From Candidatus Cryptobacteroides fimicaballi (GTDB lineage: Bacteria; Bacteroidota; Bacteroidia; Bacteroidales; UBA932), in assembly GCA_018065485.1 (NCBI GenBank), contig JAGHTF010000020.1:1-57175 (forward strand): a DNA stretch of 57,175 nt, in the 5' to 3' direction. A program made the translations under genes and the position numbers. Positions within the stretch are counted from its first letter, which is position 1; each line of letters starts with the position of its first letter. This document shows, piece after piece, positions 2,504 through 29,310 of the stretch. The notes under the pieces were generated by a model. The model worked only from the letters and a program-made list of their open reading frames with translations. It was not told where the DNA came from and ran no database searches.

Positions 2504-2525
2504 AAAAATAATATTGAATCAGTAT

Positions 2526-7712: not shown

Positions 7713-10700
7713 GATTTTCTCAATACTTGTCTGCTTAGGTGTGGCGCTGAATCTCGGCGCTGCACCCTTGCGCTTTAATTTCAGGTCGGCAGACATCACC
7801 CCTCTTGAGGAGGATCACACTATGCTTGCCGGTTTTGCCGCACGCAACGATCTTCACGACGGTGTGCACACTCCTCTGAAGGCAGGATGTTTTGTCTTTC
7901 TTGACAAGGGAACCGGCAGAAAGGTGTGCGTGGTATCCCTCGATATGATGGAACTTGCTCCAGTCCTTGCCGACGAACTGCGGGACAGCATTCAGGCCCG
8001 TACCGGAATAGGAAAGGACAATATCCTGCTTCACTGCATACATACTCACAGCGCTCCACGCGTTGGAGGACGCTGGATAGACGAGGGTGCTGCAAACAGG
8101 CCCTTCTACCTGAGATTTAAGGAATCTGTGCTCAATCTGGCCGTCTCTACGATAAATGATGAAGGCGGCTTCAGGAAGTTCAAAGTCGAGATAGGCAAAT
8201 GCTCGACTTCCATAAGCGGAAACCGTTGTGAAAAGGAAGGTCCGGTGGACCGTGACGTATATGCAGTGCGCTTCCTTGACAGGAAGGGAAAGCCTATATG
8301 CGCGTTTATCAATCTTGCCTGCCATCCCGTATGTATGGGCCCCCGCAGTTATCTGGCTGGAGCAGACTATTCCGGTGTAGCGCGAGGGATAATTTCGAAG
8401 AAATGGGGATGTGAAGTTTTCCAGTTCAGCGGAGCGCAAGGTAATCTTGATCCGGCCGAAGGTCCCAAGACATTCGAATATGCCGAGCAGTGCGGACGTT
8501 CGCTTTCCGACTCCCTTTCGACTATAGTCTTCACTCCTTTCGAAATGGACGGGACACTTGCCCTTTCGACGAACGTAACAAGGCTTCCGTTCAGGATTCC
8601 CGAGGTTACTGCAGCGGAGATACACAAGCTCGCACAGTCTCTGAAAAAGGAATATGCCACGTCTTTCCCCCGTTTCGCGGATGATGTGGACGGGTGGGAG
8701 AAGCAGATGGTCAATGAACTCGGTCCCGACGCCGTAATCAGGTCTCTGGACGTGAATATGACGGGGCTTAACATAGGCGGACTTGTCTTCGTTTTCAGTC
8801 AGGGAGAGGCGTTCTGCGAATATCAGACGGGTCTTAGAACTGCTTTTCCGGACAAGACGGTGATTTTTGCCGGCTATACCAACGGGCAAAGTGCATATAT
8901 CCCTTCTGAGCGAGCCTTCGAGGTGCGGAAGGGCTATGAATATGAACTCGAACAGGATTTCGTATATGTGAAGAGACCTTATCCTCTTTCCGAACAAATG
9001 CCACAGGCATTTCAGGAGGGTCTGGTAAAAACGGCCGCAATGGTTGCCGGAGCCCCTCGCTACGATATAATTCCCGCTCCGCTCAAACTGACCGCCAGCA
9101 GCGGAGAATTCAGTCTTGGGAAGAGGATGCGCGTTGCCGCCTCTCCCCAGTTCGTTGAGATTGCCGATGACTTCCGTGCCCGTATGGGCGAGGTAGGAGG
9201 TCTTCGCCTTAGAAGTTCGCGCCGCATATTCAGAAGGGGAGTGGAACTTGTCAAGGTAGACGGGCTTGCCCCCGAAGCATATCGCCTCAAGGTTACAAAG
9301 AGAAAGGTGACCGTAGAGGCGTCGGACTATGCCGGAGCATTCTACGCACTCCAGACTTTCTGCCAGATGCTTCCCGCCGAGGTGTATTCCGCATCCCGAG
9401 TCAGTGGTGTGGAGTGGACGGCTCCGTGCTGCGAGATCGAGGATTCCCCCCGGTTCGCATATAGGGGTATGCTCCTGGACTGCGGGCGTTATTTCTACCC
9501 TAAGGAAGAGGTGAAGAAGTTCATAGACCTGATGGCTATGCACAAGATGAATTACCTTCAGTGGCATCTGACCGAAGATCAGGGATGGCGGATAGAGATA
9601 AAGAAATTTCCCCGCCTTACCGAGGTGGGCGCCTACCGCAAGGAAACCTCGGGATACGACAACGTGGGGGATGGAAAGCCTCACGGAGGTTTCTATACCC
9701 AGGACGATGTTAGGGAGATTGTGGAATATGCGCGCCGCCGTGCGGTGACCATCATACCCGAGATAGAACTTCCCGGACATTCCTCTGCGGCCATTGCAGC
9801 CTATCCTGAACTTTCCTGCACACCCGACGAGCCCAAGGAGGTGGTAACTTCGTGGGGTGTCAAGGAAGATGTCTATTGCCCAAGGCCCGAGACCTTTGCG
9901 TTCCTCGAAGACGTGTTCTCCGAACTTTTCGACCTGTTCCCGTCTCCTTACTACCATTTTGGCGGTGACGAATGTCCAAAGACAGCCTGGCGGAACAGCG
10001 AATACTGCAAGAACTTTGCACGTGAGAAAGGACTCGACAGCGTCGATGATATACAGGATTATTTCGTGGCGCATTTCGACAACTTCCTGCGCCGGCACGG
10101 AAAGACCGTTATAGGTTGGGACGAGATACTTGACGGAAAGGCAACCGAATCGACGGTTGTAATGTCCTATCGTGGCCACAAACCGGCTTCCCGGGCTATG
10201 GAGAAAGGGATGAAGACGATTCTCTGTCCTAACCGCTGGTGCTATTTCGACTACCAGCAGCAGGAGATAGAGGACAAACCCTCGAATCAGCATCTTTTCA
10301 TTACGCTGCGCAAAGCCTACAACTGGAGCCTGGAGAGTATGATAGAGCCCGAGACCCTTGCAAAAGGCGGTGACGGCCTTCTGGGTCTGCAGGCCTGCGT
10401 ATGGGGCGAACATATCCCCGACGTTGCAAAACTCCAGCTTCAGACTTACCCGCGAGAGGCTGCAATAGCCGAGACTTCCTGGTCTGCGACAGACAACCGT
10501 GACTGGAACAATTTCAAGACGAGAATGCCCAAGGAACTTAAACGTATGGGATTTGCGGGTGTGGTATTCAGTGATGCCTTCAATAACGTGATAGTGAATA
10601 TGGACCTGGAATCGGACTATCCCAGGAGCGTCGAACTCGAAATAGACAACCTATGCGCGGTTATTCGTTACACGACCGACGGCAGCGAGCCCGGTGCCGG

Positions 10701-10812
10701 ATCGGAGGTTGTACCTTCCAGCATACGCGTCCAGAAGGGCGATACCATTAAGGCACGCGGTTTCCTCTGTGACGGAACTCCTGTCGGAGAAACAATGACT
10801 AGAACTTTCTAA
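7705..10812 (+). CDS. Fusion protein: neutral/alkaline ceramidase-like N-terminal domain + GH20 beta-N-acetylhexosaminidase
   Basis: N-terminal RSADITPLEEDHTMLAGFAARNDLHDGVHTPLKAG, HTHSAPR, NLACHPVCMG, GAQGNLDP (PF04734-like); C-terminal GH20b, RGMLLDCGRYF, WHLTEDQGWRIEIKKFP, HFGGDECPK (GH20 D-E pair). Start overlaps the upstream stop by 8 nt. Confidence 0.88.
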   Translation: MNRIFSILVCLGVALNLGAAPLRFNFRSADITPLEEDHTMLAGFAARNDLHDGVHTPLKAGCFVFLDKGTGRKVCVVSLDMMELAPVLADELRDSIQARTGIGKDNILLHCIHTHSAPRVGGRWIDEGAANRPFYLRFKESVLNLAVSTINDEGGFRKFKVEIGKCSTSISGNRCEKEGPVDRDVYAVRFLDRKGKPICAFINLACHPVCMGPRSYLAGADYSGVARGIISKKWGCEVFQFSGAQGNLDPAEGPKTFEYAEQCGRSLSDSLSTIVFTPFEMDGTLALSTNVTRLPFRIPEVTAAEIHKLAQSLKKEYATSFPRFADDVDGWEKQMVNELGPDAVIRSLDVNMTGLNIGGLVFVFSQGEAFCEYQTGLRTAFPDKTVIFAGYTNGQSAYIPSERAFEVRKGYEYELEQDFVYVKRPYPLSEQMPQAFQEGLVKTAAMVAGAPRYDIIPAPLKLTASSGEFSLGKRMRVAASPQFVEIADDFRARMGEVGGLRLRSSRRIFRRGVELVKVDGLAPEAYRLKVTKRKVTVEASDYAGAFYALQTFCQMLPAEVYSASRVSGVEWTAPCCEIEDSPRFAYRGMLLDCGRYFYPKEEVKKFIDLMAMHKMNYLQWHLTEDQGWRIEIKKFPRLTEVGAYRKETSGYDNVGDGKPHGGFYTQDDVREIVEYARRRAVTIIPEIELPGHSSAAIAAYPELSCTPDEPKEVVTSWGVKEDVYCPRPETFAFLEDVFSELFDLFPSPYYHFGGDECPKTAWRNSEYCKNFAREKGLDSVDDIQDYFVAHFDNFLRRHGKTVIGWDEILDGKATESTVVMSYRGHKPASRAMEKGMKTILCPNRWCYFDYQQQEIEDKPSNQHLFITLRKAYNWSLESMIEPETLAKGGDGLLGLQACVWGEHIPDVAKLQLQTYPREAAIAETSWSATDNRDWNNFKTRMPKELKRMGFAGVVFSDAFNNVIVNMDLESDYPRSVELEIDNLCAVIRYTTDGSEPGAGSEVVPSSIRVQKGDTIKARGFLCDGTPVGETMTRTF

Positions 10813-10813
10813 T

Positions 10814-12667
10814 ATGGCAAAACGTATCATCATATTGCTTTTTTCCGCCTTTGCGGTTCTGTCCTGTACGGTGAATGACGTAGACAGAACAGTTGGCGTA
10901 ATACCTCAGCCTCACCATATCAGTATGCCGGAAAAGGCTGGCAGCTTTGTCCTGGACAGGGACTGTGCCATCTTCCTTGACGAGCCTACCGAGGAAATGT
11001 ATCGGATAGCCGGATTCCTTAACGAAAAGCTCAAAAAGGCGGCCGGATTCACTCTTCCGGTGAAGGAAGTGAATCTGACCCCAAAGGCAAGGGGTATTTA
11101 TTTTATGAATGCCGGCAACCCTTCCGAGGCATACAATCTTCATATTATGCCGGATATGGCAGTGGTGGACTACGGAGACGGGGCAGGCGCCTTCTATGCG
11201 CTTCAGACAATGTTCCAGCTGCTGCCCAATCAGATATTCGCTTCCAGCGTGCAGAAAGGTGTAAAGTGGAATATGACCTGCTGTGACATCGAGGACAGCC
11301 CGCGTTTCAAGTATCGCGGCATGCACCTGGACGTATGCCTGCATTTCTTTGACATAGATTTCCTCAAGCGTTACATAGACCTTATGGCCCTGCACAAGGT
11401 CAACCGTTTCCACTGGCACCTTACCGAAGACCAGGGCTGGAGGCTGGAAATCAAGAAATACCCTCTTCTTACCCAGAAGGGGCAGTGGCGCAAGGAAACC
11501 GTGATCGGCTCCCTCAAATCCGGTATATATGACGGCAAGCCCCATGGTGGCTACTATTCTCAGGAGCAGGTCAGGGAGTTAGTAAAATACGCGGCAGAGC
11601 GCTATGTGACCATTATTCCCGAAATTGAACTTCCCGGGCACGCCCTTGCTGCAATAGCCTGTTACCCCGAGCTTAGTTGCGGCCTTGACAGTACGTATGA
11701 GGTGGCCACGAAATGGGGAGTGTTCAAACAGGTTTATTGTCCCAAGGAAGAGACCTTCAAATTCCTCGAAGACGTGTTCGACGAGGTGTTCGAACTCTTC
11801 CCCTCCAAACTGGTTCACATAGGCGGAGACGAATGCCCCAAGGCAAGCTGGAAGAAATGCCCGCATTGCCAGGCTCTTATAAGGAAACTCGGGTTGAAGG
11901 ACGAATTTGAACTCCAGAGCTGGTTTGTGACAAGAATGGAGAAATACATCAATTCCAAGGGTCGCGAGATCATAGGCTGGGACGAAATCCTCCAGGGCGG
12001 ACTTGCTCCCAATGCCAAAGTTATGAGCTGGTTGGGAGAGGAAGGCGGAATCAAGGCGGCCCAGCAGCATCACGAAGTGGTTATGTCTCCTCATTACCGG
12101 TATTACCTGGATTATTGGCAGGCCGACCCCGACAGTGAGCCCCTTGCTATGGGAGGGCCCACCACGCTCCGCACAATGTACGACTACAACCCTGTCCCCG
12201 AGGTGCTTACCGACGAGGAAGCCCGCTATGTAATTGGCGTGGAAGGTTGCGTATGGACTGAATATATGCCCACTCCTGCAAGAGTGGAATATATGGCCTG
12301 GCCCCGTATGTGCGCCATTGCCGAAAGCGGATGGACAAAGGCCGGCAAGGACTGGGACGGTTTTGCCTCAAGGCTCGAAAACCATCTCGTAAGGTTGGAT
12401 GAACTGGGCGTGGGATACTGCGATGCGTTCTTCAATCCCTATATCGAATTCCATAAAGATACACAATACGACAAAGTGGTTACAATAAGCGTGGATGCTC
12501 CCGGAGCCGAAATACATTATACTCTGGATGGCAGCCTGCCCACTGCAGATTCCCCTCTGTATACCGGGCCTTTTGTTGTAAACAGGCAGCAGAAGGTAAC
12601 TGCCATTGCAGTGCGAAACGGAAGACAAATCGGAAAAACTAAGTATAAAACTTTTTTAATTAACTAA
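10814..12667 (+). CDS. GH20 beta-N-acetylhexosaminidase lipoprotein with C-terminal chitobiase-type beta-sandwich
   Basis: Lipobox FAVLSC; RYRGMHLDVCLHFFDIDFLKRYIDLMALHKVNRFHWHLTEDQGWRLEIKKYP; HIGGDECPKASW; C-terminal YTLDGSLPTADSPLYTGPF. Confidence 0.93.
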   Translation: MAKRIIILLFSAFAVLSCTVNDVDRTVGVIPQPHHISMPEKAGSFVLDRDCAIFLDEPTEEMYRIAGFLNEKLKKAAGFTLPVKEVNLTPKARGIYFMNAGNPSEAYNLHIMPDMAVVDYGDGAGAFYALQTMFQLLPNQIFASSVQKGVKWNMTCCDIEDSPRFKYRGMHLDVCLHFFDIDFLKRYIDLMALHKVNRFHWHLTEDQGWRLEIKKYPLLTQKGQWRKETVIGSLKSGIYDGKPHGGYYSQEQVRELVKYAAERYVTIIPEIELPGHALAAIACYPELSCGLDSTYEVATKWGVFKQVYCPKEETFKFLEDVFDEVFELFPSKLVHIGGDECPKASWKKCPHCQALIRKLGLKDEFELQSWFVTRMEKYINSKGREIIGWDEILQGGLAPNAKVMSWLGEEGGIKAAQQHHEVVMSPHYRYYLDYWQADPDSEPLAMGGPTTLRTMYDYNPVPEVLTDEEARYVIGVEGCVWTEYMPTPARVEYMAWPRMCAIAESGWTKAGKDWDGFASRLENHLVRLDELGVGYCDAFFNPYIEFHKDTQYDKVVTISVDAPGAEIHYTLDGSLPTADSPLYTGPFVVNRQQKVTAIAVRNGRQIGKTKYKTFLIN

Positions 12668-12672
12668 TCATT

Positions 12673-13503
12673 ATGGCATTAAGATTAACTGAACAGCCGT
12701 CATTGTATGACAATCTGGAGAAGAAGAGTGTGGCTGAGCTGTTGCACGACATCAATCAGGAAGACCAGAAAGTGGCTTTGGCCATTCAGAAGGTTCTGCC
12801 CGATATCGAAAAACTTGTCAGTGCAATAGAGGCCCACGTTCGTGAGGGTGGACGTTTGTTCTACCTCGGGTGCGGAACCGGTGGAAAGCTTGCAGTGCTG
12901 GATACGCTGGAAATTCCCAACACCTATGGCGTAAGCCCCGAGATGGTACAGTGCGTTCTGGCAGGTGGAGTCGAGAATCTTGTTCAGGACATCGAGGAAG
13001 CCGAAGACTGGCTCGACGAAGGTTGGGAAACCCTTGAGAAGAAACATCACGTTACCCCTAAGGATATCGTGGTTGGCATCTCGGCCAGCGGCACCACTCC
13101 CTATGTCCTTGCATCTCTCAAGGCTTGCCGGGAACACGGAATCCCTACCGGATCGTTCGTGAACAATCCCGATTCTCCCATTTCACAGTATTCCGACTAT
13201 CCTGTCGAGATTCTCACCGGTCCCGAATTCATTACCGGCAGTACCCGTATGAAGTCCGGCACTTCGCAGAAAATGCTCTGCGATATGATAAGCACTACGC
13301 TAATGTGCAGGTTGGGCCGCGTAGAAGGCAACAGGATGGTGTGTGCGCATCTTATCAACAATAAGGTCGTTGACCGTCTCACCCGAACCCTTATGGACCG
13401 CAACGGCATTGCCGACTACGCCCTCGTTGAGGCTGAAATCAAGGCTTGCGGCGGCCTTAAGGAAGCGGAGGACTCCCTTCGTAGGAAAGGTTTTATCAAA
13501 TAA
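12673..13503 (+). CDS. MurQ-like SIS-domain protein (divergent N-acetylmuramic acid 6-phosphate etherase paralog)
   Basis: LFYLGCGTGGKLAVLDTLEIPNTYG, DIVVGISASGTTPYVLASL, GPEFITGSTRMKSGTSQKM; aligned by eye to the canonical MurQ at 40235, with several motif substitutions. Confidence 0.85.
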   Translation: MALRLTEQPSLYDNLEKKSVAELLHDINQEDQKVALAIQKVLPDIEKLVSAIEAHVREGGRLFYLGCGTGGKLAVLDTLEIPNTYGVSPEMVQCVLAGGVENLVQDIEEAEDWLDEGWETLEKKHHVTPKDIVVGISASGTTPYVLASLKACREHGIPTGSFVNNPDSPISQYSDYPVEILTGPEFITGSTRMKSGTSQKMLCDMISTTLMCRLGRVEGNRMVCAHLINNKVVDRLTRTLMDRNGIADYALVEAEIKACGGLKEAEDSLRRKGFIK

Positions 13504-13540: not shown

Positions 13541-16500
13541 ATGAAAAAGATCTTTAATTATCTCGTTTCTTTCCTTGCAATCTCACTTGCACTGGTAGCT
13601 TGTAAGAAAGAAGAACCCACTCCCGATCCTACTCCGGTAGGTGGCGGATTCAAAATCAATGAGGTGGTTGCTGCAGCGTCAGAAGCCTACTCTACCTGGG
13701 AGGATGCAAGGGAAATCCCTGCTTCTTTCACTGTAGCGGGCAAGACTCTCAGCGCTTCCGATTTCTTCTTCGTTGAGGCTACTGCTCTCGTTGAAATAAG
13801 CGAAGGCAGCCAGGCCGAAATTGCAGTGGTTCCCTACAAGGCTGCAGCATCTCCCGACAAGGACAGCTACGATGCAACCGAAATTGCAGTTACCAACGGT
13901 CCCAAGGATGGCAAAGGCGTAGCCGAGGATATCGTTACCGTTGCCAAGACCTTCCTTGCCGATGCAGCTGCAAAGGGCCAGTGGCAGAACCGTGTTCTGG
14001 TTTACAGAGGTGACGACGCTCTTGCTTTCTGTACCAACCGTGCCATTGTTACCGTTATGCGCGCGCTTGCTGCATATGCCGAGTCTGCAAAGCTTCCCGC
14101 TACAGTCAGCACGGAATACCTTTCCGCTTCCAATACCCTGAAGGCATTTGCCCAGGAGTTCGTGAAGTATCTCGACATCTGGGATGCAACGATAGCCGAC
14201 AAGCTCAGCGCCGACGGCGATCACTGCTCGGCAAACAACAATGCCTGGGAAAGAGTGCATTTCATTCCCATCCCTTACGACACCGACAATGACTACCACA
14301 ATGAGGGCAAGGACCAGTATGACTTCGCAAAATACGGCAACCCTCAGAACATCGAGGTCAATGGTGAAACCTACACTGCCGCAAATTGCTGGGAAATCGC
14401 CATCCGCGGTCTTATGGATATGTGTACTACCGACGGTCAGGCCTTTATGAACACAATGGACCGCAACACTCCCATCAACTATGGCGACGGTCTTTCACTT
14501 ATGTCCGCTCCCATCAGCAAACCTTCCGAGACCTGTATCTGGGGTAAGTATCCATGGTATGAGAAGGAAGGTGACGGCGGTTTCATCAAGTACAATGAAG
14601 CGCCTATTACAGAGATGAACGTTGACCTCCTGCTCAAGGCCTGCTCTTGGCACGTTACCAGGAGTTTCATCAAGAACAACTTCAACGACCCTCTCGGAAT
14701 GATCGGTAACTTCCAGCAGTTCGGAACATCTGCATCAACCCTCAATGTGGAAGGTTACGAAGGACTTATCAGCCCTATGCGTGAGTTCCTCATTATGGCC
14801 CGTATCTACAAGTACCTGCTCGACAACAACATCAACAAGAACGTTTATACTGCCATCAAGGACGTGAAGTTCGACGTTGACCTTTACAACCAGGAGCTGC
14901 CCGTAAACGTGAAGACCAAATCTCTCAAGTTCGAAGCAACTCCCGAAGGACCTCTTACAATCGAACTCACCGCTACCGAGAACTGGACGGCAACCTGTGA
15001 TGCCGAATGGCTGTCTCTCGACAAGACATCAGGCGCCGCCGGTGATGCAAAAGTTACTGTAACCGCTCAGAACAATACCGGCGAGGCCCGTACAGCCACT
15101 ATCACTTTCGCGGCCGGCGATTACACCAAAGACGTAGCTGTAATTCAGACCGAGTATATCGCTCCTATCACTGGTACTCTTAAGGAATTTGCACAGGAAT
15201 TCGTAAAGGCTCTCGATGAATGGAACAGCCACGTAGGACGCGTTGATGCCGACGGAGCACATAATCTCGCTACGGGATGGCAGAACGCTCACTTTGTTCC
15301 CATCGAGCACCCCAATGCAACCGGCAAGGATACCTATGTAGGTGAAGGCTTCGAAGGGAACCAGTATGATGAGACCCTTTTCGACCATACTTTCACAGTC
15401 AATGTCAATGGACAGGTTTATACTTCGGCTCAGGCTTGGGATATTGCTATCCGCGGTTTGATGGATCTTGTAACTGCAGAAGGCTCTGCAGAACTTGAAA
15501 ACTTCACCGACAGCCGTAACCACGCAATGACTTTTGCCGACGGTGCTTCGCTTCTCGAAACTATGCCTACACCGACAGCCGGCTGTGCCTGGGGTAAATA
15601 TCCCTGGTATGAGCAGGACAATCAAATGACAAATAACGGTCAGCCCGTAACCGAGGTAGGCGTTGACTTTATGGTAAAGGCTTGCTCCTGGCATCTTATC
15701 AGAGCATTCATCAAGATTCCCGGAGTGAACGGTTCTCCTCTCGGAATGATAGGCAACTATCAGGAGTTCGGTACGAACCCCGATTCACAGCTCGTTCTGG
15801 ACAACTATGCAGGTTATATCGCTCCTATGCGTGAGTTCCTTATCCTTGCACGTTTCTACAAGTATCTGCTCGACAACAATATCACAGAGAACGTTTACAC
15901 GGCTGTCAAGGATCAGAAGTTCGATTATGACCTTTACAACCAGGGCGCTGTTCCCGTAAAAGAGACCACTATCAAGGATTTTGCAACTGAGTATGTGAAA
16001 CTTCTTGATGTATGGGAAAAGACAACCGGCAAGATAAATACAATTACCGGATTCGATACCGCCAGCTCGAATTATGATCCTGCCAATGACGTTATCGGCC
16101 ACTATATCCCCGAGGATACCAAGATTACCGTAGGCAAGAAGGAGTATAATCTCGCTGACGTATACGAACTCGCCGAGCGCAGTTATCTCCTTGTCCGCGG
16201 ATATGACGGAAACGACGTCAATCCCGACCACGTAGGAGCCGGCAAGATTGACAAGCTCGACAAGAGTGTGAATATGTCCGAGACCGCAATTCCCGCAACT
16301 CACGACTATCAGTGGGCATCTCTGCGTTACAATGAGTCTGCCGGCAATGGCGGCAACTTCCAGAAGAAAGACGGCTCTGCCGTTGCTTCTCTCGCAGTTC
16401 TTGACAACAATGCCAACAGAAGCATCAACTGGCCGCTCAACCCCAGCAAGGGCAATGGTCTGATTTCCAACAACTGCGGTTACAACAGTGACCAGGTTCC

Positions 16501-17410
16501 CGGTTTCAAGGGCTGTTTCAGCGCTGTACGCGCTATGCTTACCTATGCCGAGTTCTTCAAGTATATGCTTGACAACAACCTCGACACAGCCGGAGAACTC
16601 AGTGCCGATACAGAGGTTCCCACCCGTCTTTTCGGTGAGACCAAGCCCGTACCTGCCGCAGCAACTCTCAAAGACTTCGCAGAGGCTTATGTAAGCTGCC
16701 TCGACGTTTGGAAGAGCACAGTTGGTATGGTTGAGGCCGACGGTACACACTGTGTAGGAAAGGGCACTCAGTTCGAGAACGTTCATCTTGTTCCTATCGC
16801 CAATCCCAACAAGGGTTACACTACCGAAGGCAACCAGTACGACGACACTCTCTATCCTGTAAAATGGACTGTAAAGGTGGGTGAAACCGAGTACACTTCT
16901 GCCCAGGCCTGGGAAATCGCCATCCGTGGTCTTATGGAACTCTGTACTACCGAAGGAGAAGCTTTCCTTGCCGGTATGACAGACAGGAATATGGCCTATA
17001 CCCTTGCAAACGGCAAAGCTCTTTCCACTACAGTTCCTGATTATACCGACGTTTGCGAATGGGGTGCTTATCCCTGGTATGAGCAGGATGCCGACAACAA
17101 ACCTGTCACATTCAACGATGCAGAAATAGACAAAGTAGGCATCGACTTCATTCTCAAATGCGGCAGCTGGTTCGTGGTACGCGGCCTTATCACCAATTCG
17201 GGCAACACCCGTCTGGGCAAGATAGGCAACTATCAGGAATTCGGCACGAAATCAAGTACGCTCATTCTCGATGGCTATAAAGGCTTTATCAGCCCTATGA
17301 GAGTTATGTTGCTTACCGCACGTGTTTACAAATACCTGCTCGACAACAACATTACCGAAAACGCCTACGATGCGCTTAAGGACGTGAAGGTTGATTTCGA
17401 CCTCTATTAA
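13541..17410 (+). CDS. Large surface lipoprotein: N-terminal PMBR-like segment, four ~250-aa repeats, one BACON domain
   Basis: Lipobox ISLALVACKKEEPTP; repeat openings TLKAFAQEFVKYLDIW / TLKEFAQEFVKALDEW / TIKDFATEYVKLLDVW / TLKDFAEAYVSCLDVW and closings YKYLLDNNI...YTAIKDVKFDVDLY. Confidence 0.9.
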   Translation: MKKIFNYLVSFLAISLALVACKKEEPTPDPTPVGGGFKINEVVAAASEAYSTWEDAREIPASFTVAGKTLSASDFFFVEATALVEISEGSQAEIAVVPYKAAASPDKDSYDATEIAVTNGPKDGKGVAEDIVTVAKTFLADAAAKGQWQNRVLVYRGDDALAFCTNRAIVTVMRALAAYAESAKLPATVSTEYLSASNTLKAFAQEFVKYLDIWDATIADKLSADGDHCSANNNAWERVHFIPIPYDTDNDYHNEGKDQYDFAKYGNPQNIEVNGETYTAANCWEIAIRGLMDMCTTDGQAFMNTMDRNTPINYGDGLSLMSAPISKPSETCIWGKYPWYEKEGDGGFIKYNEAPITEMNVDLLLKACSWHVTRSFIKNNFNDPLGMIGNFQQFGTSASTLNVEGYEGLISPMREFLIMARIYKYLLDNNINKNVYTAIKDVKFDVDLYNQELPVNVKTKSLKFEATPEGPLTIELTATENWTATCDAEWLSLDKTSGAAGDAKVTVTAQNNTGEARTATITFAAGDYTKDVAVIQTEYIAPITGTLKEFAQEFVKALDEWNSHVGRVDADGAHNLATGWQNAHFVPIEHPNATGKDTYVGEGFEGNQYDETLFDHTFTVNVNGQVYTSAQAWDIAIRGLMDLVTAEGSAELENFTDSRNHAMTFADGASLLETMPTPTAGCAWGKYPWYEQDNQMTNNGQPVTEVGVDFMVKACSWHLIRAFIKIPGVNGSPLGMIGNYQEFGTNPDSQLVLDNYAGYIAPMREFLILARFYKYLLDNNITENVYTAVKDQKFDYDLYNQGAVPVKETTIKDFATEYVKLLDVWEKTTGKINTITGFDTASSNYDPANDVIGHYIPEDTKITVGKKEYNLADVYELAERSYLLVRGYDGNDVNPDHVGAGKIDKLDKSVNMSETAIPATHDYQWASLRYNESAGNGGNFQKKDGSAVASLAVLDNNANRSINWPLNPSKGNGLISNNCGYNSDQVPGFKGCFSAVRAMLTYAEFFKYMLDNNLDTAGELSADTEVPTRLFGETKPVPAAATLKDFAEAYVSCLDVWKSTVGMVEADGTHCVGKGTQFENVHLVPIANPNKGYTTEGNQYDDTLYPVKWTVKVGETEYTSAQAWEIAIRGLMELCTTEGEAFLAGMTDRNMAYTLANGKALSTTVPDYTDVCEWGAYPWYEQDADNKPVTFNDAEIDKVGIDFILKCGSWFVVRGLITNSGNTRLGKIGNYQEFGTKSSTLILDGYKGFISPMRVMLLTARVYKYLLDNNITENAYDALKDVKVDFDLY
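13655..13798 (+). other. Pseudomurein-binding-repeat (PMBR)-like segment
   Basis: INEVVAAASEAYSTWEDAREIPASFTVAGKTLSASDFFFVEATALVEI matches my recollection of the PMBR pattern (A..v..yi..n..lP..v.v.gk..s...Fl.l...a...i); not HMM-verified. Confidence 0.5.
14134..14896 (+). repeat. Protein repeat unit 1 of the 1289-aa lipoprotein
   Basis: TLKAFAQEFVKYLDIW ... WEIAIRGLMDMCTTDGQAF ... CIWGKYPWYE ... YTAIKDVKFDVDLYNQE. Confidence 0.85.
14920..15166 (+). other. BACON domain
   Basis: ENWTATCDAEWLSLDKTSGAAGDAKVTVTAQNNTGEARTATITFAAGDYTKDVAVIQ is a textbook BACON pattern. Confidence 0.85.
15176..15946 (+). repeat. Protein repeat unit 2
   Basis: TLKEFAQEFVKALDEWNSHVG ... WDIAIRGLMDLVTAEG ... CAWGKYPWYEQD ... 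YTAVKDQKFDYDLYNQG. Confidence 0.85.
15965..16660 (+). repeat. Protein repeat unit 3 (most divergent)
   Basis: TIKDFATEYVKLLDVWEKTTG ... TVGKKEYNLADVYELAERSYLLV ... YAEFFKYMLDNNL; lacks the CxWGxYPWYE block. Confidence 0.75.
16663..17407 (+). repeat. Protein repeat unit 4
   Basis: TLKDFAEAYVSCLDVWKSTVG ... WEIAIRGLMELCTTEG ... CEWGAYPWYEQD ... YDALKDVKVDFDLY*. Confidence 0.85.
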
Positions 17411-17470: not shown

Positions 17471-18499
17471 ATGAAAAAGGCATTGTCCGTTATTTCAGCC
17501 GCTTTTGCCGTGATTCTTTTCTTGTCGTGCGGCAAAGCCACTCCGGACCCCAAACCGGAAGAGCCCCAACCTCAGCCTCAGAAGATTGACTGGCGCGAAA
17601 CCTACAACGGCGACCTGCTGTTGGCCCTTTCGGGAGCGTATGCAAAATGGCAGGAAACTAATACTATACCCACAACCATAAAGTGGGACGGTTTCACCGT
17701 ATTCAATGTGGAGTATCTGCGAGCCGGAATTACCCTGTTGCTGAAAATAATAGACAATCCAAATACCTGGGCAGACGAAAACCTTACCTATCCTTCGGCC
17801 GCTTGTTCCATATCTTCACGCAAGGGAGAGCCGTTTCTGCCCAGGGAAATCAAATTCGGCGAGTTTACCTCCGTGCTAAGGAGCGTGTACGCCTCTATGA
17901 CCGGGGGAAAATCGATACCCAATGCAATTGAGGTATCCTCCTACGAAAACAAGATGACAACATCGGCTCTTCTTAAAGCGATATTGGAAGCGGCCGCGTG
18001 TTACGATGCGCACGAATCCCTGCCCGAAACCGTAGATGTCTGGGAATCGTCCTACATCGCTCCCACGGCTCATTGCGAAGTCAATGCCGCCGAGGTTAAA
18101 ACTGCCCGCGACGCCGCATTCGCCAAATACAACGTAACCGACAAATCGACCGTACGCGAGAAGGCGACTGCCATTTTCGAGTATGCCCGTACCGAGTGGA
18201 CCTGGGAAGACTACAACAACACCAAAAAGGGTGCGGTTGGCACAATCAAGGCCAAGAGCGGCAATTGCTGTGACCTTTCTAATGCGATATGCGCTATGGC
18301 ACGCCTCAGCGGCATTCCCGCCCGTTATTTCCACGCCCAGTGCAAATATTCGAGCGGTTACATAGGACACGTCATTTCCCAACTTTTTGTTGACGGAAAA
18401 TGGGAATTCGCCGATGCCTCCAACGACAGCAACTCCTTTGGCACGGTTGTCTTTACCGACTACACCGGACTGCATTATTACGAAGAACTGGAATTTTAA
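17471..18499 (+). CDS. Lipoprotein with PMBR-like segments and C-terminal transglutaminase-fold cysteine protease domain (pseudomurein endoisopeptidase-like)
   Basis: Lipobox VILFLSCGK; LALSGAYAKWQETNTIPTTIKWDGFTVFNVEYLRAGITLLLKI; YNNTKKGAVGTIKAKSGNCCDLSNAICAMARLSGIPARYFHAQCKYSSGYIGHVISQLFVDGKWEFADASNDSNSFG = Cys/His/Asp transglutaminase-like triad. Confidence 0.85.
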   Translation: MKKALSVISAAFAVILFLSCGKATPDPKPEEPQPQPQKIDWRETYNGDLLLALSGAYAKWQETNTIPTTIKWDGFTVFNVEYLRAGITLLLKIIDNPNTWADENLTYPSAACSISSRKGEPFLPREIKFGEFTSVLRSVYASMTGGKSIPNAIEVSSYENKMTTSALLKAILEAAACYDAHESLPETVDVWESSYIAPTAHCEVNAAEVKTARDAAFAKYNVTDKSTVREKATAIFEYARTEWTWEDYNNTKKGAVGTIKAKSGNCCDLSNAICAMARLSGIPARYFHAQCKYSSGYIGHVISQLFVDGKWEFADASNDSNSFGTVVFTDYTGLHYYEELEF

Positions 18500-20654: not shown

Positions 20655-22094
20655 ATGAAAAGATATATAATAATAGTTGCGCTTGCGCTTGCCGCTCTTG
20701 TATCCTGCGGCAGGAAGGAAACATCCGGGGAACTTCCTATGTTCTGGACCTGGATGGAAGACAGGGAAGGGTTGGACCTCGATTCCCTGTTCGTACAAAT
20801 GGATGAGGCCGGAATGGACGGACTTATGCTTTTTGTCCCCGACACTGAAAGATATCAGAAGGCCGCCGCACTGGCAAAGGAGCACGGAGTTACCCTCTAC
20901 GCCTGGATATGGATCCTCAATCCCAGAGGAGACCGCAAGCAATTGCTCGAAACCCATCCCGAATGGTTCGACGTAAACCGGGGCGGTAAGTCTCTTGCCG
21001 ACTACAAGGCATACGTTAACTCTTACAAGTTCCTGAGCGCCGCGTTGCCCGAGGTGCGGGAGTATGTAAAGGAAACGGTAAAGAGAGTTTGCGAAATCGA
21101 AGGTATAGACGGTATCTGCCTCGACTATTGCCGCATAGTGGACTGCGTCCTTCCCATCAGCCTGGCCTATAATTATAACCTCCGCCAGGACACCGAGGTT
21201 TATCCCGACTGGGATTTCGGTTATCATCCGGCAGCAATAGAGCGGTTTGTGGCGGAATACGGCTATGACCCCCGCGAACTCGAGGACCCTTCACGCGATC
21301 CCAGGTGGTGCGGGTTCCGTTGCGACTTGGTTGCCGAGGTCGCCAATATTGCAGCCGAGGTTGCCCACAGCTATGGGAAGAAGGTCTGCGCTTCGCCTTT
21401 CGCTACCGTAAAGCTGGCCTCTTTTATGGTGAGCCAGGACTTCTCAAAGTGGAACCTCGACTTTGTATTCCCTATGGAATATTCCGACTTCTACTCAATG
21501 GAACCGGGTTTCGTATATGACGCCACTGTCCAGAACAACCGCGACAAGGGCCCCGGAACCGAGCTTTACGTTGGCCTTGGCGCCGAACTCGGCAGCGGTC
21601 TTCCGGCGCTCATTGAAAATATGGATGCCGCCTTCCGCGGTGGAGCCCAGGGCATTAGCCTTTATACTGTTGCCGGGCTTGAAACCCCGGAAGACAGGGC
21701 CGGATTCAAGGCCTATGCCGACAGCCTCCGCAAAGTTCGCGCTCAGAATGGGGGAGTGATGCCTGCCCTTGAGCCTGTAGGCTATGCCCCTGCATCGGGT
21801 ACCAGCCTCAACCCGTTCGCGCACACTCGCCTTATGGCGGTGGTAGAACGCAATATGCAGCGCCTCATAGCGGGAGACCCCATTCACGTAAAGAGTGTGA
21901 ACGGTATGGTTCCCGACGACCCGGCCAAAGAATATCCGGCACTTGAACTTTCGGAATACACTCAGACTCTGGCCACCGACAGGCTTCTCAAATATCGTGT
22001 TACCGACAAAGCCAGCAACATTTGCTTTGACGTTCTTTTCCCCGTTTACGGTGGATTGATTTCGGGCTGGGACGTACGTGTCGTTGAGCAATAA
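20655..22094 (+). CDS. GHL10/DUF187-like TIM-barrel glycosidase lipoprotein
   Basis: Lipobox ALVSCGRK; YAWIWILNPRGDRKQLLETHPEWFDVNRGGKSL; IEGIDGICLDYCRI; FVFPMEYSDFY. Confidence 0.75.
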   Translation: MKRYIIIVALALAALVSCGRKETSGELPMFWTWMEDREGLDLDSLFVQMDEAGMDGLMLFVPDTERYQKAAALAKEHGVTLYAWIWILNPRGDRKQLLETHPEWFDVNRGGKSLADYKAYVNSYKFLSAALPEVREYVKETVKRVCEIEGIDGICLDYCRIVDCVLPISLAYNYNLRQDTEVYPDWDFGYHPAAIERFVAEYGYDPRELEDPSRDPRWCGFRCDLVAEVANIAAEVAHSYGKKVCASPFATVKLASFMVSQDFSKWNLDFVFPMEYSDFYSMEPGFVYDATVQNNRDKGPGTELYVGLGAELGSGLPALIENMDAAFRGGAQGISLYTVAGLETPEDRAGFKAYADSLRKVRAQNGGVMPALEPVGYAPASGTSLNPFAHTRLMAVVERNMQRLIAGDPIHVKSVNGMVPDDPAKEYPALELSEYTQTLATDRLLKYRVTDKASNICFDVLFPVYGGLISGWDVRVVEQ

Positions 22095-22109: not shown

Positions 22110-22988
22110 ATGCGCAAAATATTACTTACAACGGTTCTGCTGCTCTCGGTACTGACCCTGAGTGCAAAGACTCCGAAGAACACCAATGCCATCTGGGCCT
22201 GGTCTTCCCATATGGACAAGATAGACCTTCAGGAACTTAAAGACAAAGGTATAGGAAACATTATCCTGCACGACAAGAGCTTTACAAATCACGGCGAAGA
22301 AGCTACGATGGCCTTCATAAAGGCCGCAAAGAAGAAGGGAATACTGGTTCACGCGTGGGTGCAGGTTTCTTACTGCGGCGGCAAATGGATGAGCCTGGTC
22401 GATGACGAGCACAACTGCTACCGTCAGGACCGCTTCGATGAGGTAATCGACCTTTGCAAGCATTATATGGACCTTGGAGTGGAGGCTATCCATTTCGACT
22501 ACATCCGCTTTGGCGGTACTGCCCACAAGCACAATCCTTCACCTGAGGTTACCGGCACGGGGGCAATCACCGAATTCTGCCGTCAGGCCAACGCCGCCCT
22601 CAAGGGAAATAACCCCAAGGTCATTCTTTCGGCCGCGCTTATGCCCGAACCCGACAGTGAGTACTATTACGGCCAGGATCCGGCGCAGATGGGACAGTAT
22701 CTCGACATTCTCATGCCTATGATTTACCGGCATTCACCCGCTTACGCCAGAGGCGGAGAGGGCTGGGCCCCTATGGTAGCCCGTCATTTTGTAGAGAAGG
22801 GCAAGCCCGCACAGGTATGGGCAGGTACCACTACCTACACCGGTGACGACGACAGCGTCAAACCTATGGATGCACCCTCCATAATGGCCGACTGCGAAAC
22901 CTTCAAAGGCACCGGCGTAACCGGCATCGTTTTCTTCCGCTTCGACCTTGGCGAGATTCCCGATATGAAGAAATTCAAACTGAACTAA
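22110..22988 (+). CDS. GHL10/DUF187-like glycosidase, single catalytic domain
   Basis: GVEAIHFDYIRFGGTAHKHNPSPEVTGTGAITEFCRQANAALKGNNPKVILSAALMPEPDSEYYYGQDPAQMGQYLDILMPMIY, strongly similar to the 18513 protein C-terminus. Confidence 0.85.
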   Translation: MRKILLTTVLLLSVLTLSAKTPKNTNAIWAWSSHMDKIDLQELKDKGIGNIILHDKSFTNHGEEATMAFIKAAKKKGILVHAWVQVSYCGGKWMSLVDDEHNCYRQDRFDEVIDLCKHYMDLGVEAIHFDYIRFGGTAHKHNPSPEVTGTGAITEFCRQANAALKGNNPKVILSAALMPEPDSEYYYGQDPAQMGQYLDILMPMIYRHSPAYARGGEGWAPMVARHFVEKGKPAQVWAGTTTYTGDDDSVKPMDAPSIMADCETFKGTGVTGIVFFRFDLGEIPDMKKFKLN

Positions 22989-22990
22989 AT

Positions 22991-23848
22991 ATGATACTGA
23001 TAGCAGACAGCGGTGCAAGCAAGACCGATTGGGCTTGCGTGTCAAGAATAAATAGTACCTGTATTCGTTTTACGAGTCAAGGTTATAACCCCAATTATAT
23101 TACCGGTCCTCAGATTGTAGAGGATATAAAGGCAAACCTGCCTACAGAGTTGGATCCGGCATCGGTCGATGAGATTTATTTCTATGGTGCCGGTGTAACC
23201 GAACTGCAGTATCCCTTTATGACGGACACGCTGAAGCAGGTGTTCAACAGGGCAGAGAAGGTGTTCATTGCAATGGACACCCTCGCATCCTGCCGTGCCC
23301 TGCTTCAGACGGAGCCCGGTTTTGCAGCTATATTGGGGACAGGGGCAAACTCCTGTCTCTACGACGGCTGCAACGAAGGCTTTAACGTCGATTCCTGCGG
23401 CTTCATACTGGGAGACGAAGGCAGCGGCGCCAACCTGGGAAAGAGGTTGATTACCGACTACATCCGCCGCAATATGCCCGAAAAAGTATATGACTTGGTT
23501 GGGAAGGAACTCGGACACAATAATGACGAGTTGCTCGACATTATCTATACCAAGCCCTTCCCCAACAGGTTCTGCGCCCAATACGCGAAATTCATAAATG
23601 AAAATCTGAACTTCGACCCCTATTTCCCCAATTTGGTAACCGATGCTTTCCAGAAATTCTTCGACCTTATTGTGACACATTATCCCAACTACTGGAAATA
23701 CAGTTTTAACGCAGTAGGCTCTGTGGCTTATCATTTCAAGCCGCTGCTCCAGCCCGTTGTGGAGGCTTATGGAATGACAATGGGCAATATTCTCAAAGCT
23801 CCGATGGAGGGGCTAATCAGGTATCACCTCGAAAATCCCGAAGTATGA
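22991..23848 (+). CDS. BadF/BadG/BcrA/BcrD-type ATPase, N-acetylglucosamine-kinase-like
   Basis: MILIADSGASKTDWACV (phosphate-1), GTGANSCLYDG, GFILGDEGSGANLGKRL; paralog of the 39376 ORF. Confidence 0.9.
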   Translation: MILIADSGASKTDWACVSRINSTCIRFTSQGYNPNYITGPQIVEDIKANLPTELDPASVDEIYFYGAGVTELQYPFMTDTLKQVFNRAEKVFIAMDTLASCRALLQTEPGFAAILGTGANSCLYDGCNEGFNVDSCGFILGDEGSGANLGKRLITDYIRRNMPEKVYDLVGKELGHNNDELLDIIYTKPFPNRFCAQYAKFINENLNFDPYFPNLVTDAFQKFFDLIVTHYPNYWKYSFNAVGSVAYHFKPLLQPVVEAYGMTMGNILKAPMEGLIRYHLENPEV

Positions 23849-25047
23849 GTCAGGCACCTTTAAAGAAAAATTACGCCCTTCCTCTGGCGTTTATAGGAAT
23901 GATGTTCTTTGTTGTAGGATTTGCTACGGGTATCAACGGTTATTTCGTGCCGTTCCTCGAAAAGAATCTCGAACTTAGTTCCGCCCAGTCTTATCTTGTG
24001 ATTGCGGCAACCTTCGCGGCTTTTCTTATATGCAGTTTCCCGGCCGCGTCCATAATAGCCAGGATAGGATACCGCAGAACTATGTCTTTGTCATTCTTCC
24101 TTTTTGCATTTGCATTCGCACTGTTTATCCCTGCGGCAAGGTATGAAAGTTTTGCGCTGTATCTGACTGCCTGTTTTATCAGCGGCACTGCCAATACGGT
24201 GCTGCAGGCGGCAATCAACCCCTATGTGACCATTCTCGGCCCCATAGAAAGTGCTGCCCGCAGAATCAGCATTATGGGTATCTGCAATTCCCTTGCGCTC
24301 AGTCTTCCTTCTGTATTCATTGCTTTTGTGACAGGTAAGAATATAGATGCCGTAGCCCTGGGCGACCTTGATATCTGCTTTTATGTCATAATCTCCATTG
24401 TTGTTATACTTGGTGTAATAACTCGTTTTGCGCCTTTAGAAGAAATCAAGGCCGAGGGCGAAGAGAATGAAGATGACTGCCCGTATGCGGCCGGAAAGAA
24501 ATCAATCTGGCAGTTCCCTCACCTTGTGCTTGGCGCACTTGCGCTTTTCGTGTACGTAGGTGTTGAGAATCTCGCATTGCTGACGGTTCTGGACTATGCC
24601 CAGGATTTGGGTTTGTCCAATCCCGAAAAATATACTTTGTTTCCGGGTCTTGGAATGGCGGTGGGCTATGTAATCGGCATTTTTCTGATTCCCAAGTATA
24701 TGTCCCAGGTAAAGGCTCTGCGAATATGCACCTGGGTGGCTGTAGTGGATTCTCTTCTCATAGTCCTTACACCGGCATCTGTCTCGGTATGGTGCGTTGC
24801 GCTGCTCAGTCTGGCGTGCTCTCTTATGTACCCGGCCATCTGGCCCCTTGCAATTACCGAACTGGGCAAATTCACCAAGAAAGGGTCGTCTCTTCTGGTT
24901 GCTTCAATAGGCGGCGGAGCCCTCATCCCTTTGCTTTTCGGCCTGGTAAAGGATTGGGCGGGAAGCCAGCCGGCATATTGGATATGCATTCCTTTTTACC
25001 TGCTTATTATGTTTTATGCCTATTATGGATATAAAATAAGAAAATAA
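23845..25047 (+). CDS. MFS sugar transporter (FucP/NagP-like)
   Basis: FVVGFATGINGYFVPFLEKNLELSSAQSYLVIAATFAAFLICSFPAASIIARIGYRRTM; multiple TM segments; ATGA overlap with the kinase. Confidence 0.9.
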   Translation: MSQAPLKKNYALPLAFIGMMFFVVGFATGINGYFVPFLEKNLELSSAQSYLVIAATFAAFLICSFPAASIIARIGYRRTMSLSFFLFAFAFALFIPAARYESFALYLTACFISGTANTVLQAAINPYVTILGPIESAARRISIMGICNSLALSLPSVFIAFVTGKNIDAVALGDLDICFYVIISIVVILGVITRFAPLEEIKAEGEENEDDCPYAAGKKSIWQFPHLVLGALALFVYVGVENLALLTVLDYAQDLGLSNPEKYTLFPGLGMAVGYVIGIFLIPKYMSQVKALRICTWVAVVDSLLIVLTPASVSVWCVALLSLACSLMYPAIWPLAITELGKFTKKGSSLLVASIGGGALIPLLFGLVKDWAGSQPAYWICIPFYLLIMFYAYYGYKIRK

Positions 25048-25063
25048 GTCGTATATTGACAAG

Positions 25064-26758
25064 ATGAATATGCGTTACCCTCGCCGTATTATTTGTTTTG
25101 TATTTTGTTATGCGTTTCTCTGCGCTTGCCAAAAACCGGTAGGTGAACCTGAACCCGGGTCTTCGGGGGATGACCCCCGGCCCGACCCTCAGGAAATCGT
25201 TGTTGCGCCCGAAGAAGGCTCCACGGTTTACGGAAGGGTATTCTGCGACGGCAAGGGCCTTCAGGGAGTTGTGGTTACCGACGGATATGAAGTGACCGCT
25301 ACCGACAATGACGGAGTGTATCAGTTGCGTTCGGCGAAAAAGAATTCGATGGTCTGGATTTCAATCCCATCCGGTTACAAACCGCTGAATGCCGGGGTAC
25401 AGTCTCTCTTCTATGCCTATACCTCAAAGGACGCCTCTGCCGTTGAAAGGATAGATTTCGAACTCTTCCGGGACGGTGACCAGACCAATCACAAAATGCT
25501 GTTCTTCGGCGATATCCATCTTGCCGCGCGAACCCGGGACCGTCAGCAGTTCGAGACTTTTACCAGCGAAGTCGAATCTTTCGTACGGATCCACAGTAAC
25601 GAGAAAATCTATGCCATTACCCTTGGAGATATGACCTGGGACGTGTACTGGTACAGCAACAACTATAATTTCCAGAGTTACCTCAGGGATCTAAATGCCA
25701 ATATCAAGTCTGTAACGGTATTTCACACGATGGGAAACCACGACCACGATATGGTGACCTTGGTCGACGGGGCGTCGCAGGGATGGAATGCGGTTGACTG
25801 GGACTGTGCCGAGGCGTACAGGCGGAATCTCGGGCCCAATTACTATTCTTTCAATATAGGCAGGGTTCATTATATTTCGCTCGACAATATCTATTGCAAA
25901 AATACGGCAGGAGGGGCTTCGGCCGACAGGCATTACGAAGATGCCGTAAGCGACGATGCTCTCGCCTGGCTGCGGAAGGATCTGGAGTATGTGGACAAAT
26001 CGGCTCAGATTGTGCTCGCGATGCACGCCCCTTATACGACTCAGGACGGGAATCTGTCGCTCAATAACGGAGGGCTTCTGGTGAATAGTTTAAAGGGTTT
26101 CGGCAAGGTCCTTTTCGTAACGGGACATACTCACAGAATGAGCACGACGCAGCGCCAGGGAGTGATTGAACACAATTCCGGAGCGGTATGCGCCACCTGG
26201 TGGTGGGGTGGATACAATAATCCCACTCTTAACATAGCCCCGGATGGTTCACCTGGGGGATACAGGGTTATGGATTTCAACGGAACCGATTATGTCTCAT
26301 ACTATAAGGCCGTAGGCCGGGATGAGCAGTACCAGTTCCGTACTTACGACCGCAATGCCATCTGCATAGACCCTTCCAAGGTGAAGTATTCCTCCGAATA
26401 CCGTTCCTGCCTCAGTTCTTATGGCAACTACGGTACTCCGAGTTCGGCCAATGAGGTTATCATCAACGTCTGGGACTGGAACCCGGGCTGGAAAATAGAT
26501 GTTACGGAAAACGGCAAAGCTCTGAAGGTCAACCAGTTCAATGGGTATGACCCTATCTTTCATCTCTCATACAACGATTATCGTTACGACAAAACCGGCT
26601 CGCCCGGCTTTACTGCGTACAAGACAAACCACCTGTTCAAGGTGACAGCCTCCAGCGCTTCGTCCTCTCTGGAAATCAGAGTGACCGACGACGAAGGCCG
26701 CGTATATTCCGAGACTATGAAGCGTCCCAAGGCATTCACCATAAACACATATAAATAA
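25064..26758 (+). CDS. Calcineurin-like metallophosphoesterase lipoprotein with N-terminal carboxypeptidase-regulatory-like domain
   Basis: Lipobox AFLCACQKP; FCDGKGLQGVVVTDGYEVTATDNDGVYQL; FFGDIHL, GDMTWD, MGNHDHD, VTGHTHR. Confidence 0.92.
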   Translation: MNMRYPRRIICFVFCYAFLCACQKPVGEPEPGSSGDDPRPDPQEIVVAPEEGSTVYGRVFCDGKGLQGVVVTDGYEVTATDNDGVYQLRSAKKNSMVWISIPSGYKPLNAGVQSLFYAYTSKDASAVERIDFELFRDGDQTNHKMLFFGDIHLAARTRDRQQFETFTSEVESFVRIHSNEKIYAITLGDMTWDVYWYSNNYNFQSYLRDLNANIKSVTVFHTMGNHDHDMVTLVDGASQGWNAVDWDCAEAYRRNLGPNYYSFNIGRVHYISLDNIYCKNTAGGASADRHYEDAVSDDALAWLRKDLEYVDKSAQIVLAMHAPYTTQDGNLSLNNGGLLVNSLKGFGKVLFVTGHTHRMSTTQRQGVIEHNSGAVCATWWWGGYNNPTLNIAPDGSPGGYRVMDFNGTDYVSYYKAVGRDEQYQFRTYDRNAICIDPSKVKYSSEYRSCLSSYGNYGTPSSANEVIINVWDWNPGWKIDVTENGKALKVNQFNGYDPIFHLSYNDYRYDKTGSPGFTAYKTNHLFKVTASSASSSLEIRVTDDEGRVYSETMKRPKAFTINTYK

Positions 26759-26762
26759 AGGA

Positions 26763-27812
26763 ATGAATCTCTTAAAAACCCTGGCCATAGGACTCGCAGG
26801 ACTGCTTGCCTCGTATGACGCTATTGCCTGCACCACTGCCATAGTTTCGGCACAAGCCAGCGAAACCGGCCGCCCGCTTCTGTGGAAGCAGAGGGACACG
26901 GGCAATCCGTTCAATACCGCAGTGTTCATCTGCGCTACGGATTCTTCGTATGCTTACACCGCTATATTCAACATAAGCGATACAGAACGCAAATCGGTGT
27001 ATGCAGGGGAGAATGAGAAAGGATTTGCCATTGTCAACAACGTTTCCTATAATCTGGCATCCGCGGAATATACTACAAGGAACGGAGCGTTTATGCGCCG
27101 TGCGCTGGAGTGCTGCGTGACCGTAGATGACTTTGAGGCAATGCTGCGCTCCCTGAATCCAAGGAACGTCGAGGCTAACTTCGGAGTCATTGACGCATCG
27201 GGCGGAGCCGCATATTTTGAAGCCGCCGACTCATCGGTAACCAGATTCGACGTACCTGAGGGCGGATGGTTGGTGCGAAGCAACTTCTCGGTTTCGGGAA
27301 CTCCGGAGGGGCAGGGATATGCCCGTTATCTTACCGCTCAGACTCTGATGTCGGCTCACAAGGGAAAGTTCTTGCCATTGTTCCTCATTGACTGTCTGGG
27401 AAGGAGTTATTACAACGCTGTTCTTGGCTATGACGCTTCACGACGTTTCCCCAAGGGAATGGTCTTTGACGAAGATTTCATCCCCCGTCCCACAACCGTA
27501 AGTTCTGTCTGTTTCGACGGCAGTGCCTGTATGTGGACGGCCGTTGGATATACTCCCGCATCTTATGCAATGCCGCTGCCTGTGTGCTCTGAACTGCCAT
27601 CCTGCCTTGAGAAGGCGAATGCTCTTGCCCAAAAGCTTAAAGAGCGTATGCACCCGCTGGGCAGAGATGCAGGGGTCAAGTACATAGACTTCGGCGTAGC
27701 CCGCCGGATAATGAATGTCGTGCGCCGGTACGAAAGGGAAGCGTCTGCCCTGCAGGGCGACAACGAAGCGCTGGACCGCCTTTTTGAAAGATTCACAGGA
27801 GAATTCGAATGA
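26763..27812 (+). CDS. C45-type / linear amide C-N hydrolase (Ntn hydrolase)
   Basis: Signal peptide ending DAIA|CTTAIVSAQASETGRPLLWKQRDTGNPFN; GENEKGFAIVNNVSYNL; Cys placed to become the N-terminal nucleophile. Confidence 0.75.
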   Translation: MNLLKTLAIGLAGLLASYDAIACTTAIVSAQASETGRPLLWKQRDTGNPFNTAVFICATDSSYAYTAIFNISDTERKSVYAGENEKGFAIVNNVSYNLASAEYTTRNGAFMRRALECCVTVDDFEAMLRSLNPRNVEANFGVIDASGGAAYFEAADSSVTRFDVPEGGWLVRSNFSVSGTPEGQGYARYLTAQTLMSAHKGKFLPLFLIDCLGRSYYNAVLGYDASRRFPKGMVFDEDFIPRPTTVSSVCFDGSACMWTAVGYTPASYAMPLPVCSELPSCLEKANALAQKLKERMHPLGRDAGVKYIDFGVARRIMNVVRRYEREASALQGDNEALDRLFERFTGEFE

Positions 27813-29241: not shown

Positions 29242-29310
29242 TATTGTCTTCCTATATGCTAGCAAAGATAATAAATCCCAATGAAAATCTTATGTTCCCC
29301 GCAGCTGTTA

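Follow-up and report, generated by a model that had tools for sequence, protein, structure and literature searches.

A Bacteroidales lipoprotein related to a methanogen-virus pseudomurein-binding repeat protein and its conserved polysaccharide-utilization locus

A gene in the 57,175-nucleotide stretch of Candidatus Cryptobacteroides fimicaballi DNA analysed here (the window) encodes a protein, P0001, in which three repeats resembling pseudomurein-binding repeats (PMBRs) precede a transglutaminase-fold domain with a Cys-His-Asp triad. P0001 belongs with the PMBR-transglutaminase proteins of the type found in Methanobacterium virus Drs3, has a predicted fold like that of the Pei enzymes and is encoded in a locus conserved across Bacteroidales. 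That it is a wall-peptide isopeptidase, working within a locus for methanogen pseudomurein, is a reading to which we give about as much belief as doubt.

The architecture of P0001 suggests that some rumen bacteria feed on methanogen walls. If this is true, these bacteria attack or scavenge methanogens, which would mean that bacteria and archaea interact directly where most livestock methane is made, and the genomes of these bacteria would offer a supply of wall-cutting enzymes suited to body temperature; in one study Pei activity was not seen at 37 C (PMC2989375). Even with bacterial murein as the target, it would follow that bacteria, too, make use of the wall-enzyme architecture of methanogen viruses, and that they have a clade of MurQ proteins whose active site has changed. 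In the literature searched we found no bacterial locus to which breakdown of pseudomurein is ascribed, nor any glycosidase for this polymer.

Architecture, kinship and predicted fold of P0001

The open reading frame runs exactly from 17471 to 18499 on the forward strand, starts with ATG and is intact, giving a protein of 342 aa. Its lipobox, FLSC, ends in Cys20 (codon 17528-17530, +), a residue at least 90% conserved among relatives, in agreement with the sequence-only reading of a lipobox-bearing protein; P0001 is probably lipidated there and probably lies at the cell surface. The Pfam profile PF01841 (Transglut_core) matches residues 218-315 (18122-18415, +) with an E-value of 3.4e-15 and 56.7 bits against a cut-off of 23. 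Within this transglutaminase-like domain Cys266 (18266-18268), His300 (18368-18370) and Asp315 (18413-18415), all on the forward strand, form a putative catalytic triad that is invariant across 38 aligned family members, which upholds the transglutaminase-fold Cys, His and Asp claimed from the sequence alone. No NCBIfam profile matched P0001, and PHROGs gave one weak match.

The AF2 model of P0001 (35 sequences, pLDDT 88.0, pTM 0.80) contains three helix-strand units, at residues 45-95 (17603-17755, +), 126-157 (17846-17941, +) and 163-191 (17957-18043, +), which are colinear with the repeats of Drs3. The two PMBR-shaped segments described earlier are real and correspond to repeats 1 and 3, a further unit lying between them. 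All three are placed by AF2 secondary structure, repeats 1 and 3 also by alignment to the Drs3 repeats, and repeat 2 is the one that the PMBR profile PF09373 calls in relatives. On P0001 alone this Pfam profile gives no score at any E-value up to 10, but it is called in 19 of the 38 bacterial family members at E <= 0.01 (best E 1.7e-6); the relative L029 reaches 24.3 bits, where the cut-off is 24.9. The Drs3 repeats score 14.3 bits against the bacterial family profile in hmmsearch (shuffles at most 8.7), and profile-profile alignment of bacterial and Drs3 repeats with hhalign gives 46.3 (120 shuffles, at most 21.7).

Among 50,697 phage records searched with tblastn, the best match of P0001 is the 'pseudomurein-binding repeat protein' of Drs3 (E 2e-21, 100 bits). 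Four records match in all, every one of them a methanogen virus (Drs3 and vir080, the latter at 5e-4, each twice), so that the hits are not confined to generic bacterial transglutaminases, the outcome that the sequence-only reading had named as telling against it. A search of 72,556 plasmids found at best generic transglutaminases, none of them above 51 bits. A sample of 247 genomes of the order yields, besides the window itself, nothing better than a partial match at 4e-7, and in 346 genomes of the phylum the next-best Bacteroidota transglutaminase found with the family profile reaches 53 bits on the protease domain alone. Measured against a profile of the family's protease half, the Drs3 transglutaminase domain scores 130.7 bits (2000 shuffles, at most 10.0), while the PeiP domain scores against the family profile within the shuffle range and the transglutaminase domain of 3isr, from Cytophaga hutchinsonii, has an E-value of 6.7e-11. 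At the sequence level, then, the match of the bacterial family to Drs3 is far above chance, and the nearest relative found outside that family is the PMBR protein of a Methanobacterium virus.

The family and Drs3 are colinear through the repeats, a linker with a conserved Cys and a Y-x-E-L-P-F-like end. The Drs3 protein, ORF35 (AXN53416.1), like P0001 has three repeats followed by a GNCCD-type transglutaminase domain and remains colinear to the last residues, with 38% identity to P0001 over 149 aa and up to 46% to its relatives over the domain; unlike P0001, it is viral, has no lipobox and has well-scoring PMBRs (PF09373 E 2.7e-17). We know of no published activity test of ORF35. In a tree whose rows include no cellular archaeal homologues, the bacterial family forms one clade (93/98) and Drs3 is the nearest outside row; a clade joining Drs3 to the family is neither supported nor rejected by the AU test on these rows (p 0.4). 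Scans of viral contigs and of genome contigs with the single P0001 sequence returned nothing, as did alignment-based and Drs3-based scans of the viral contigs; a DNA-pattern scan for PMBR returned 12 contigs and one for the YYNT motif none.

Likeness to Pei enzymes, also proposed earlier, reappears in the predicted structure. Foldseek places PeiP first for the P0001 model in two libraries, BFVD (E 1.1e-9, 324 columns) and the PDB, where the entry is 8z4f (E 6.1e-10, 322 columns). Behind it in the PDB come 3isr (3.8e-8, over 161 columns, half those of PeiP) and the catalytic domain of PeiW (8jx4, 1e-4). TM-scores against PeiP are low (0.29-0.35) and the rmsd is large, meaning that the parts of P0001 match those of PeiP and their relative placement differs. 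PeiP and PeiW (peptidase C71) share with P0001 an order of N-terminal wall-binding repeats, four of them in PeiP (PMC2989375), and a C-terminal Cys-His-Asp transglutaminase fold, whereas they have no significant sequence similarity to it and no lipid anchor. The proposed similarity to C71 did not hold at the level of the profile: PF12386 does not match P0001 at E-values up to 10, and Drs3 too remains below its cut-off (20.7 bits against 22). P0001 is therefore not filed as a peptidase C71 and seems to represent a branch sister to PeiW/PeiP; its design, wall-binding repeats joined to a Cys-His-Asp protease of transglutaminase fold, suggests that it works as they do.

The surrounding locus and its conservation

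The genes from 410 to 27812 all read in the forward direction. The first of them encode a SusD-family lipoprotein (410-2503, PF07980), a SusC-like TonB-dependent transporter (2514-5594, PF13715 and PF07715) and a second SusD-family lipoprotein (5607-7712, PF07980). Two GH20 hexosaminidases follow (7705-10812 and 10814-12667, PF00728), the former with an N-terminal stretch that matches neutral/alkaline ceramidase (PF04734), then a MurQ paralogue with altered motifs near the catalytic Glu (12673-13503) and a large BACON-domain lipoprotein, probably at the surface (13541-17410). Downstream of P0001 lie a lipoprotein in which two lamin-tail domain matches (PF00932) are joined to a DUF4015 putative glycosidase (PF13200; 18513-20648), an unusual combination, a GHL10-like putative glycosidase (20655-22094; PF02638 at 22 bits, below the cut-off of 27.9) and a further DUF4015 putative glycosidase (22110-22988, PF13200). 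These are followed by an amino-sugar kinase-like protein (22991-23848; a weak match to NCBIfam NagK_SO3507, E 8.8e-7), an MFS sugar transporter of NagP/GluP type (23845-25047; TIGR01272 above cut-off), a calcineurin-like phosphoesterase (25064-26758, PF16370 and PF16371) and a C45/AAT Ntn-hydrolase (26763-27812; PF03417, kept in the locus by synteny). An M20 peptidase homologue comes next on the opposite strand (27817-29265, -). With a SusC/SusD pair and glycan-degrading enzymes in one operon, this is a polysaccharide-utilization locus, which confirms the setting claimed for P0001.

An alignment-based genome scan recovered 43 related loci, all in Bacteroidales and with titles that are mostly those of rumen/ruminant or other gut MAGs. 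Across them the order GH20, MurQ, DUF4015, BACON lipoprotein, P0001 homologue, kinase, MFS transporter and C45 is largely kept; an M20 peptidase is present in 21 of the 43 and a sodium/glutamate symporter in 23, both downstream, and the calcineurin-like phosphoesterase was not recovered from the syntenic loci. One relative comes from Candidatus Cryptobacteroides intestinipullorum, and close homologues occur in 13 of 300 genomes of the window's family, its own included. The DUF4015 gene found nothing among phages (tblastn). In some loci (L074, L076, L077 and L088) a further BACON-repeat lipoprotein is encoded downstream along with an additional DUF4015 gene, which suggests duplicated binding and cutting modules.

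The BACON lipoprotein has 1289 aa and no protease domain. Its N-terminus (about 13646-14170, +) aligns with that of P0001 (hhalign probability 99, E 3.6e-18), and the module scores 41.3 against the Drs3 repeats (shuffles 23.8); Pfam does not call PMBR in it. Judged by profile-profile and fold comparison, it is the same three-repeat PMBR-like module as in P0001. The best three PDB matches of the modelled module are PeiP (5e-4), PeiR-C90A (0.2) and PeiR (0.24), of which only that to PeiP is significant; it is nonetheless telling that Pei enzymes take all three leading places among 350,542 PDB chains. Over most of its remaining length the protein contains a long unit repeated several times, DFAxEFVKxLDxWExTVG ... 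EYTSAQAWEIAIRGL, which has no Pfam name.

Proposed role and competing readings

From its lipobox, its domains and its neighbours, we infer that P0001 is an outer-surface lipoprotein held on a cell-wall polymer by its three PMBR-like repeats, where its Pei-like Cys-His-Asp domain would hydrolyse peptide or isopeptide bonds of the wall's peptide part. The larger BACON lipoprotein would be a second carrier of the same wall-binding module. The glycan would be cut by the GH20 and DUF4015/GHL10 enzymes and fragments imported by SusC/SusD; the peptide may be handled by the M20 peptidase, the C45 hydrolase and, in many loci, the glutamate symporter, and the sugars by the kinase, the MFS transporter and the modified MurQ. 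Methanogen pseudomurein is the likeliest candidate for the wall polymer, which would make methanogen walls a food of the cell. PeiP and PeiW cut pseudomurein at its Ala-epsilon-Lys bonds, using a triad of the kind seen in P0001 (PMC2989375, PMC4592898). In its fullest form this proposal makes the locus of these rumen Bacteroidales the first one dedicated to eating archaeal walls, with two PMBR-type lipoproteins that bind pseudomurein, a Pei-like lipoprotein that cuts its peptide, DUF4015/GHL10 enzymes (candidates for the missing pseudomurein glycosidases) that cut its beta-1,3 glycan together with GH20, and a modified MurQ that processes a pseudomurein-derived sugar; we advance it tentatively and lean somewhat against so complete a version.

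Pseudomurein is the likeliest target, ahead of bacterial murein, which is the main rival since the locus holds a MurQ homologue. Under the murein alternative the same enzyme and locus would act on bacterial walls, with the repeats binding GlcNAc-containing wall fragments, the protease cutting peptide cross-bridges, and GH20 and MurQ feeding GlcNAc and MurNAc into metabolism; we consider this doubtful while giving it real weight. GlcNAc is common to murein and pseudomurein, the latter having no muramic acid, and pseudomurein may contain GalNAc (PMC4592898), so that GH20 fits both polymers. The MurQ of the locus scores above the PRK05441 cut-off (290 bits against 168) and has a kinase-like protein and a NagP-like transporter alongside, as in bacterial MurNAc salvage, where MurQ, a MurNAc/GlcNAc kinase and a transporter go together. 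A PUL-type MurQ is present in all 13 family genomes with a P0001 homologue, and a MurQ homologue in every sampled genome with the gene speaks against a polymer that contains no muramic acid. Nor does the core depend on P0001: the PUL-type MurQ clade occurs in 22 of the 300 family genomes, nine of them without a P0001 homologue, and in four of these nine genomes the core is seen to be GH20, MurQ and kinase, in most cases accompanied by an MFS transporter and by SusC/D-like genes. A core that occurs with and without the P0001 gene was not made for pseudomurein alone, which, like the failure of PF12386 and PF09373 to match P0001 and the low TM-scores to PeiP, counts against the pseudomurein reading. 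One of the loci without the gene has a GH18-GHL10 fusion protein adjoining the GH20-MurQ core (L148:14589-17024).

The same MurQ also provides evidence against murein. The window holds two MurQ homologues, 48% identical, at 12673-13503 in the locus and at 40235-41044, the latter a canonical copy beside a BadF-type kinase (the pair spanning 39376-41044). Compared with MurQ sequences in the PDB and with this canonical copy, the locus MurQ has, across loci, GTGG[KR]L for GTSGRL, DxxExPNT for DASExPPT, EEAED or EEMED for EGAED and CDM for LNM, changes that surround the first catalytic Glu and also lie elsewhere, and it remains below the cut-off of the equivalog TIGR00274 (248.5 bits against 302). 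Together these suggest, at the level of motifs and profiles, that its specificity has changed. Furthermore, of the locus proteins scanned none matches a standard murein amidase, endopeptidase, NlpC/P60, M23, lysozyme/muramidase or GH73 family, and the closest relatives of the protease outside the bacterial family are in methanogen viruses. The binding modules leave the matter between the two walls, as at least three PMB motifs are required for binding the pseudomurein of methanogen cells and two suffice for lysozyme-treated bacterial spheroplasts, which PMB domains thus also bind (PMC3124540); the three repeats of P0001 alone do not settle which polymer is bound. A point for murein is that DUF4015 occurs in fusion with YkyA, a domain present in a partner of a spore-wall deacetylase (PMC12700454).

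It is unlikely, though worth weighing beside a pseudomurein hydrolase, that P0001 binds or cross-links a wall polymer and does not hydrolyse it, for example in attachment to methanogens for hydrogen transfer. Adhesin-like Group III proteins of methanogens (M. smithii, M. stadtmanae) have adjoining PMBR and transglutaminase domains and are surface-exposed as P0001 would be (PMC11532034), a likeness at the level of domain descriptions, and they differ in being archaeal and in having archaeal big domains. A methanogen transglutaminase orthogroup has been proposed to form pseudomurein cross-links and not to hydrolyse them (PMC11915815), and the binding module is present in two of the lipoproteins encoded in the locus. 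Against this stand the triad, invariant in 38 homologues, and the company of the gene, which in nearly all loci lies among genes for degradation and uptake. Least probable is that P0001 is an unspecialized bacterial protease of transglutaminase-like type whose substrate is host or dietary protein, and that its likeness to Pei reflects a shared fold only. PF01841 is indeed the sole Pfam match of P0001, and 3isr from Cytophaga follows close behind PeiP in the PDB; however, the match of that protein to the family is limited to the protease domain, with no wall-binding repeats aligned, whereas homology to Drs3 spans repeats and protease domain. Other Bacteroidota transglutaminases in the genomes sampled match far less well, and the BACON neighbour, which shares only the repeat module with P0001, still matches Pei structures.
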